A DNA stretch of 35,440 nt from a candidate division TA06 bacterium (GTDB lineage Bacteria; Hydrothermota; 32-111; QNBC01), in contig QNBC01000003.1 in the NCBI GenBank assembly GCA_003641665.1, positions 1 to 35,440 of the forward strand, given 5' to 3'. The notes below the pieces were generated by a model, which saw only the letters and a list, made by a program, of their open reading frames with translations, ran no database searches and was not told the DNA's origin. Positions 8,565 through 35,241 of the stretch are shown here, piece by piece (the stretch's first letter is position 1; every line of letters starts with the position of its first letter). The position numbers and the translations under genes were made by a program.

Positions 8565-8593
8565 ACAATAACAAACTTATATTGTAATGTCAA
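8565..8593 (-). promoter_or_regulatory. Promoter for the holA operon: TTGACA-N17-TATTGT
   Basis: Reverse complement TTGACA (8593-8588), 17 nt, TATTGT (8570-8565). Confidence 0.6.
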
Positions 8594-8611: not shown

Positions 8612-8631
8612 GGGTAGATAAGTCCACTTGT
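8612..8631 (+). repeat. Degenerate/truncated copy of the 43-bp interspersed repeat (GGGTAGATAAGTCCACTTGT)
   Basis: Matches the 5' part of the repeats at 17250 and 34943 and has the same 24-nt offset from TGTCAA. Confidence 0.5.
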
Positions 8632-8640
8632 TACATTATA

Positions 8641-17202: not shown

Positions 17203-17231
17203 ATAATATTTTAAATATCTCTATTTGTCAA
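17203..17231 (-). promoter_or_regulatory. HD-GYP gene promoter TTGACA-N17-TATTAT
   Basis: Reverse complement TTGACA (17231-17226), 17 nt, TATTAT (17208-17203). Confidence 0.7.
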
Positions 17232-17249
17232 TTGACGAATAAGAATTTA

Positions 17250-17292
17250 GGGTAGATAGGTCCGCCTGCATTAAGGTTCCGGCAGACAGGTA
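17250..17292 (+). repeat. 43-bp interspersed hairpin repeat, copy 1
   Basis: GGGTAGATAGGTCCGCCTGCATTAAGGTTCCGGCAGACAGGTA, 37/43 identical to 34943-34985. Confidence 0.85.
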
Positions 17293-17333
17293 TAGACATA
17301 TCAACCAGTAATGGAAATAAAGGAGGTGAAAAA

Positions 17334-17381
17334 GCGAGTAAGATTTGGGAAAGAACTGAGCTCAAATCACTACATAAATAA
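17334..17381 (+). pseudogene. Possible N-terminal relic of an Old Yellow Enzyme-type oxidoreductase
   Basis: AAAGGAGGTG SD then SKIWERTELKSLHK*, resembling OYE N-termini; no intact start, no continuing ORF. Confidence 0.2.
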
Positions 17382-34895: not shown

Positions 34896-34924
34896 CTTAT
34901 ACAATATTTTTTATCTGTTGTCAA
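34896..34924 (-). promoter_or_regulatory. Promoter of the PLD-ComEC operon: TTGACA-N17-TATAAG
   Basis: Reverse complement TTGACA (34924-34919), 17 nt, TATAAG (34901-34896). Confidence 0.6.
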
Positions 34925-34942
34925 TATAAACAATAAATTTCG

Positions 34943-34985
34943 GGGTAGATAGGCCCGCCTGCACTAAAGTTTCGGCGGGCAGGTA
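34943..34985 (+). repeat. 43-bp interspersed hairpin repeat, copy 2
   Basis: GGGTAGATAGGCCCGCCTGCACTAAAGTTTCGGCGGGCAGGTA; perfect 7-bp stem GCCCGCC/GGCGGGC. Confidence 0.85.
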
Positions 34986-35241
34986 CAAAACATATTAATC
35001 GGAAATAATTGAGATACCGAGATACTATAAACCAATCATACATTTATGTTTAATATGTCATATTATTGAGTTTGTATTTATTTCCGAGACAATACATCTT
35101 TCGTTACCGGAAATAGGTAAACCTCCCCAACTACAGCTCCACATTCTTCAATAATCTGTAATCCATATTAATGCTATGAAATCAGTTTTTTGCATTTTCA
35201 ATAAACATACATTATTTTCTTTTTCAAATAAAGCTATTCAC

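Follow-up and report, generated by a model that had tools for sequence, protein, structure and literature searches.

A hairpin-bearing repeat phased to sigma70-type promoters in a candidate division TA06 bacterium: apparent right end of a transposon family that probably inserts in a promoter-directed manner

Why should the same short hairpin repeat stand at one fixed distance upstream of sigma70-type promoters? The question was raised by a copy at position 17250 of the window, by which we mean the whole analysed stretch of 35,440 nucleotides; the genome to which it belongs (G000, hereafter the own genome) is a 1.75-Mb draft of 184 contigs. A sequence-only reading had described three copies of a hairpin module, each 18 nt from a TTGACA box and each heading a minus-strand gene, and had proposed a regulator-binding site, a portable promoter, or a mobile repeat that targets the −35 box.

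Results

Copies of the repeat in the window and across the genome

The window contains two exact matches, at 17250 and 34943, and a copy with 3 mismatches at 8612, where shuffled sequences lead one to expect 0.01 copies. All three have the same minus-strand layout, CTATCTACC followed by 19 nt (18 nt when counted from CTACCC), TTGACA, N17, and a −10 hexamer, which is TATTAT, TATAAG, and TATTGT for the 17250, 34943, and 8612 copies, respectively. A minus-strand gene lies downstream of each, as had been read. The 8612 copy is a degenerate remnant, for which we looked for a left half and found none. An Rfam search of the window gave no match to known structured RNA. Coordinates are listed in Table 1.

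Table 1. Repeat copies of the window and the promoters that adjoin them
Feature	Position	Strand	Remarks
Right terminal inverted repeat (IRR) of the 17250 copy, interrupted by the hairpin, GGTTGATATGTCTATACC...CCTATCTACC	17251..17306	minus	Profile match 17285-17309; terminal CTACC ends at 17251
30-nt hairpin unit within the IRR of the 17250 copy	about 17261-17290	minus	
Stretch retained from the full-length insertion sequence (right end)	17282..17341	minus	Matches the G003 element over 61 nt with 77% identity, E 4e-6
Native 19-nt spacer of the 17250 copy	17232..17250	minus	Position corresponds to the 15-bp target-site duplication plus 3-4 nt of young copies elsewhere
Native sigma70-type promoter, TTGACA-N17-TATTAT	17203..17231	minus	Kept in G002 without the element
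Second copy, right end with hairpin, GATTAATATGTTTTGTACC...CCTATCTACC	34944..35000	minus	
Promoter TTGACA-N17-TATAAG, 19 nt past the right end of the second copy	34896..34924	minus	
Third copy, in which about the last 18 nt of a hairpin-type right end survive in degenerate form	8613..8632	minus	3 mismatches
Promoter TTGACA-N17-TATTGT, 19 nt past the remnant	8565..8593	minus	

Across the own genome, the 19-mer occurs in 38 copies at up to 2 mismatches (reversed-pattern control, 0). A search for ATCTACC-N17..21-TTGAC returned 47 sites, again with 0 for the reversed control, and the gap was 18 or 19 nt in 46 of the 47. Thus, TTGACA is clearly enriched at a fixed spacing, neither a lack of such enrichment nor a placement mostly in genes being observed, and the phasing described from the window extends genome-wide, although it is 18 or 19 nt and not strictly 18.

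The constant portion of these sites is the terminal TATCTACC and not the hairpin. At about 20 of the 47 phased sites the hairpin is missing, and most of these share the longer left part GGTTAATATGTTCATACCTATCTACC; selection of copies by the hairpin core alone left the phasing unchanged. The hairpin proved to be a 30-nt unit inserted inside the 26-nt GGTTAATATGTTCATACCTATCTACC, sometimes in tandem (L019, L064, and L072). A search of 39 relatives at up to 2 mismatches found no hairpin, and outside the own genome it was met on one public contig, JAGHAO010000082.1 (from a MAG labelled Caldisericaceae), where the element (L039) has the same phasing and lies upstream of a gene reading as a subtilisin-like protease. 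This contig may be a misbinned part of the window's lineage. The hairpin is a genome-specific addition, and the phasing is not determined by it. A hairpin-defined regulon was rejected, given downstream genes without a common function and the absence of the hairpin from relatives. Two further hairpin repeats were seen in the own genome: GTCATTCCGAACTTGTTTCGGAATCTCATTC, inside many elements just left of the right end (L119, L126, L131, L133, and L134), and the tandem repeat CCGCCGAAGCTTTAGCGTAGGCGG of L093 (G000:C122:5394-5509), whose units are ~92 nt apart and adjoin no promoter.

Anatomy and distribution of the element

A transposon family is recognizable whose right terminal inverted repeat (IRR) is GGTTAATATGTTCATACCTATCTACC. 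The related left end (IRL), GGCACGTGGTATAGACATACTTACC, lies upstream of it in the opposite orientation, and the two are paired in 37 elements of 144-500 nt. The 18-mer of GGCACGTGGTATAGACATACTTACC occurs 16, 10, 42, and 28 times in four genomes, counts of which a few may come from right ends, and 0 times in controls. When the outer flanks of 36 elements were compared, duplications peaked at exactly 15 bp, at which length identity reached at least 80% in 6 of 36 versus 0.000 of random pairings; other lengths gave little signal, and the flanks of the remaining elements are too diverged. Perfect target-site duplications (TSDs) border the hairpin-bearing L003 of the own genome (CTTAAAATAATTTTT, 15/15) and L201 of the relative G001 (AAACAGATCAACGGC), and exact duplications fix the element ends as 5'-GG...CC-3'. 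With inverted repeats at both ends, a constant 15-bp TSD, and sequence in common with an autonomous copy, the short copies have the features of MITEs. On this sequence evidence, the repeat is identified as the IRR of short non-autonomous transposons (MITEs) and of their parent insertion sequence. The idea of an asymmetric regulator site was dropped because left ends and duplications had appeared.

The candidate parent, L262 of the relative G003, is a complete copy of about 1.33 kb with a 378-amino-acid (aa) open reading frame between 21-bp inverted repeats of 95% identity. Its product matches the NCBIfam IS481 transposase model with an E value of 1e-21 and 77 bits, where the family cut-off is 224, and it contains a Fis-type helix-turn-helix (HTH); a homolog with 33% identity shares D146, D222, and E264. 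It is thus predicted to be a DDE transposase, distantly IS481-like. The coding region for the transposase C terminus extends across the left inverted repeat, and left ends still encode a remnant of this C terminus in G001, G002, and the own genome, in the last as only 11-22 residues; L132 of the own genome is 76% identical to the full-length element over 184 nt. An intact transposase was found only in G003, the search of the draft own genome giving none. Many own copies lie within 200 nt of contig ends (for example G000:C34:1, C89:32, C96:30, C77:125, C141:200, and C117:180) and look as if longer repeat copies had broken the assembly; such positions and the draft state of the assemblies may have kept full-length copies out of the own-genome sequence. 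The ends of a homolog in G029 (L277) were also examined and displayed no convincing inverted repeat.

With a profile of the hairpin-less element, the own genome yielded 65 matches, two congeners yielded 45 and 111, and another genome of the family yielded 70 (best E, 1e-8 to 5e-9), compared with 0-6 weak matches in each of 56 other phylum members. The transposon family is confined to one bacterial family (four genomes), with a sub-consensus that differs by genome, as in CTACT of G002 versus CTACC. A few weak matches (best E, 2e-5) are present in G054 (C118 and C71), a distant phylum member whose genome has 9% contamination, and may reflect contamination or transfer. Viral contigs held no exact match to the hairpin or the plain element, and a viral origin was rejected.

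Right ends face promoters at a fixed distance

For the phasing count, loci were fetched regardless of promoter, and a −35 and a −10 of at least 4/6 each were scored at 18/19 nt, promoters being consensus predictions and all genomes drafts. By this measure, 41 of 50 hairpin-type right ends (82%) and 66 of 99 plain ones (67%) are phased, against 2-3% at control offsets and 2 of 38 (5%) for left ends of the same family; about a third of the plain right ends are unphased. The spacing is exact to 1 bp, and neighbouring offsets hold hardly any right ends. The orientation of the right end toward the promoter is fixed and the association one-sided; the element does not include the −35, nor, with few exceptions, does the duplication. 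The symmetric L007/L025 (G000:C24:6324-6371) has TATCTACC-type ends on both sides and separates two divergent promoters, with an 18-nt spacing to each.

In young copies, so called solely from a surviving duplication, the 15-bp TSD and a further 3-4 nt take up the space before the −35; the cut would therefore span roughly −55 to −40, the −35 being taken to start at about −36. Among elements with a recognizable duplication, 7 of about 10 stand at 18-19 nt (L003, L119, L158, L165, L201+, L230, and L256), with three exceptions: L201- is at 14 nt, the duplication of L227 includes the −35 hexamer, and L163 has no evident promoter. For the window copies, a left end or duplication was sought and none was recognizable, including in the spacer of the 17250 copy; these copies are old or truncated.

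One explanation of the spacing is that the transposase reads the hexamer TTGACA as a DNA sequence and not a working promoter. Most phased copies do have an exact TTGAC. However, of the 83 right ends with TTGAC at 18/19 nt, 80 also have a −10 of at least 4/6, and the imperfect −35s TTTACA, TTGCAA, and TTCACA stand at the same spacing, which favours promoter recognition over a bare hexamer, although some of this might also result if insertions in genes are purged by purifying selection. Recognition of the hexamer as such is thus possible but doubtful.

A second explanation is that the right end acts as a global activator site or UP-like element at a fixed distance from the −35, with random transposition and selection that keeps the phased copies. 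Right ends are present at orthologous promoters of the own genome, G001, G002, and G003 while the spacers diverge (L129/L136/L148), their position, about −55 to −80, would be appropriate for a class I activator, and the symmetric L007 serves two divergent promoters at equal spacing. Nonetheless, young duplication-bearing copies are already phased, neighbouring offsets are nearly empty, orthologous copies often belong to different subfamilies, and the downstream genes are functionally unrelated (aminoacyl-tRNA synthetase, uvrA, rpsU, tRNA, and secreted proteins). The phased young copies and the unrelated genes in particular weaken the case for selection of a regulator site, and we consider it unlikely as the source of the phasing. 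As a secondary role of the right end, regulator binding is possible, since orthologous promoters often have such ends, an occupancy that also fits selection for function.

The promoters are native

At six loci (L074, L121, L125, L131, L018, and L003, compared with G001), the element is present in one species and missing in the other, with similar promoter and spacer. Likewise, for the G001 L201 locus, the own genome has the matching promoter and upstream flank but no insertion. The promoter of the 17250 copy is kept in its G002 ortholog (TTGACA...AAAATATTATT) with the element absent; this element-free comparison rests on G002, the G001 contig beginning 17 nt before the −35. Since orthologous promoters exist without the element, including that of the 17250 gene, the promoters are native. 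Other orthologous promoters are occupied in both species, where the copies often differ in subfamily and the hairpin is confined to the own genome. The same promoters may have been hit repeatedly, or retained copies may later have been homogenised; either course fits this pattern.

These data leave little of the portable promoter, in which the repeat would carry its own −35 box: the constant TTGACA distance of all three window copies had suggested it, but the spacers differ and belong to the target duplication, the −35 lies beyond the element, and relatives have the same promoters without it, making this reading highly improbable. The proposal of a mobile repeat that targets the −35 box fared well, given paired inverted repeats, 15-bp TSDs, a transposase-bearing copy, and the element-free promoters that comparison of orthologous loci revealed. 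Mobilization of a REP/REPIN-type hairpin by a RAYT (Y1 tyrosine) transposase would account for a short G+C-rich hairpin in tens of intergenic copies with GTAG beside the stem, yet it is scarcely credible here: Y1_Tnp (PF01797), detected in control genomes, is absent from the own genome, which refutes a RAYT origin of the element. Moreover, the hairpin sits within a longer inverted-repeat end, and the elements have 15-bp duplications, which would not be expected from single-strand Y1 transposition.

Discussion

Promoter-directed, oriented transposition of an IS481-like element and its MITEs probably explains the repeat. Points that speak against it are the unphased third of plain right ends, the young insertions that depart from the spacing (L201-, L227, and L163), the presence of an intact transposase in G003 only, and the occupancy of many orthologous promoters. 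Comparison of sequences establishes a family-restricted element, 15-bp duplications, a one-sided association with promoters at a fixed distance, and native promoters; from these we infer that the phasing arises at insertion, i.e., that insertion is directed to promoters. In the proposed mechanism, a transposase with a Fis-type HTH and a DDE core would cut with a 15-bp stagger about 4 to 19 bp upstream of the −35. This cut window, roughly −40 to −55, would coincide with the region bound by the RNA polymerase alpha C-terminal domains, and the transposase probably reads the −35 region or promoter-bound RNA polymerase. The 30-nt hairpin would have arisen inside the IRR in the own genome and then spread with it. 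Evenly balanced, in our judgment, is the more specific proposal that the target is promoter-bound sigma70 RNA polymerase (or its alpha C-terminal domain/UP region), that the 15-bp cut is made in one orientation, and that a common end has thereby come to stand at tens of promoters, where it may later have been co-opted for regulation.

Duplications of ~15 bp are made by some IS481 members, the reported range being 2-15 bp (PMC10045372). The element described here resembles this family in its match to the transposase model and in a duplication inside that range, but differs in a score well short of the family cut-off and in its GG...CC ends; sigma70-promoter targeting by the IS481 family was not found reported in the literature surveyed. 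In function, the ISAjo2 group of the ISAjo2/IS1202 family comes closest; it also combines oriented insertion with a fixed distance from a host-protein-bound site, and it likewise has imperfect inverted repeats, of 24-26 bp. It targets dif, 5 bp from the XerC sites, with 5-bp duplications, and has TGT...ACA ends and transposases of 394-507 aa, while for a subgroup with duplications of >15 bp no target was found (PMC10132070). By contrast, the present element has GG...CC ends and a 378-aa transposase, and it adjoins a −35/−10 promoter, not a dif/XerC site.

For bacterial promoter-targeting insertion sequences, no matching description was found in the open-access literature. Bacterial site-specific transposons are known to read tRNA genes, attTn7, or dif sites. 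The yeast retrotransposons Ty1 and Ty3 and the transposon Tn7 insert with set orientation and spacing relative to a marked place in the genome, next to transcription complexes in the case of Ty1 and Ty3; these involve other enzymes and hosts, and no accessory targeting protein was found for the element here. Correia elements and hybrid-promoter insertion sequences are short mobile repeats beside promoters that supply a −35 or a whole promoter, whereas the present element brings no such sequence and inserts next to a promoter already in place. The likeness to RAYT-mobilized REP/REPIN repeats ends at the short hairpin and its tens of intergenic copies, as the genome here has no RAYT and the element has long inverted-repeat ends with 15-bp duplications.

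If promoter-directed transposition is true, this promoter-reading family would be a bacterial counterpart of Ty1/Ty3 targeting, and tens of promoters would have gained a shared upstream element by transposition and not by point mutation. It would also offer a testable target for the long-duplication IS481/IS1202 relatives without a known one (PMC10132070). The promoter of another mobile element may be a target too, as a right end in G003 (L258, G003:C276) lies upstream of a gene that, from its sequence, resembles an IS110-type transposase.
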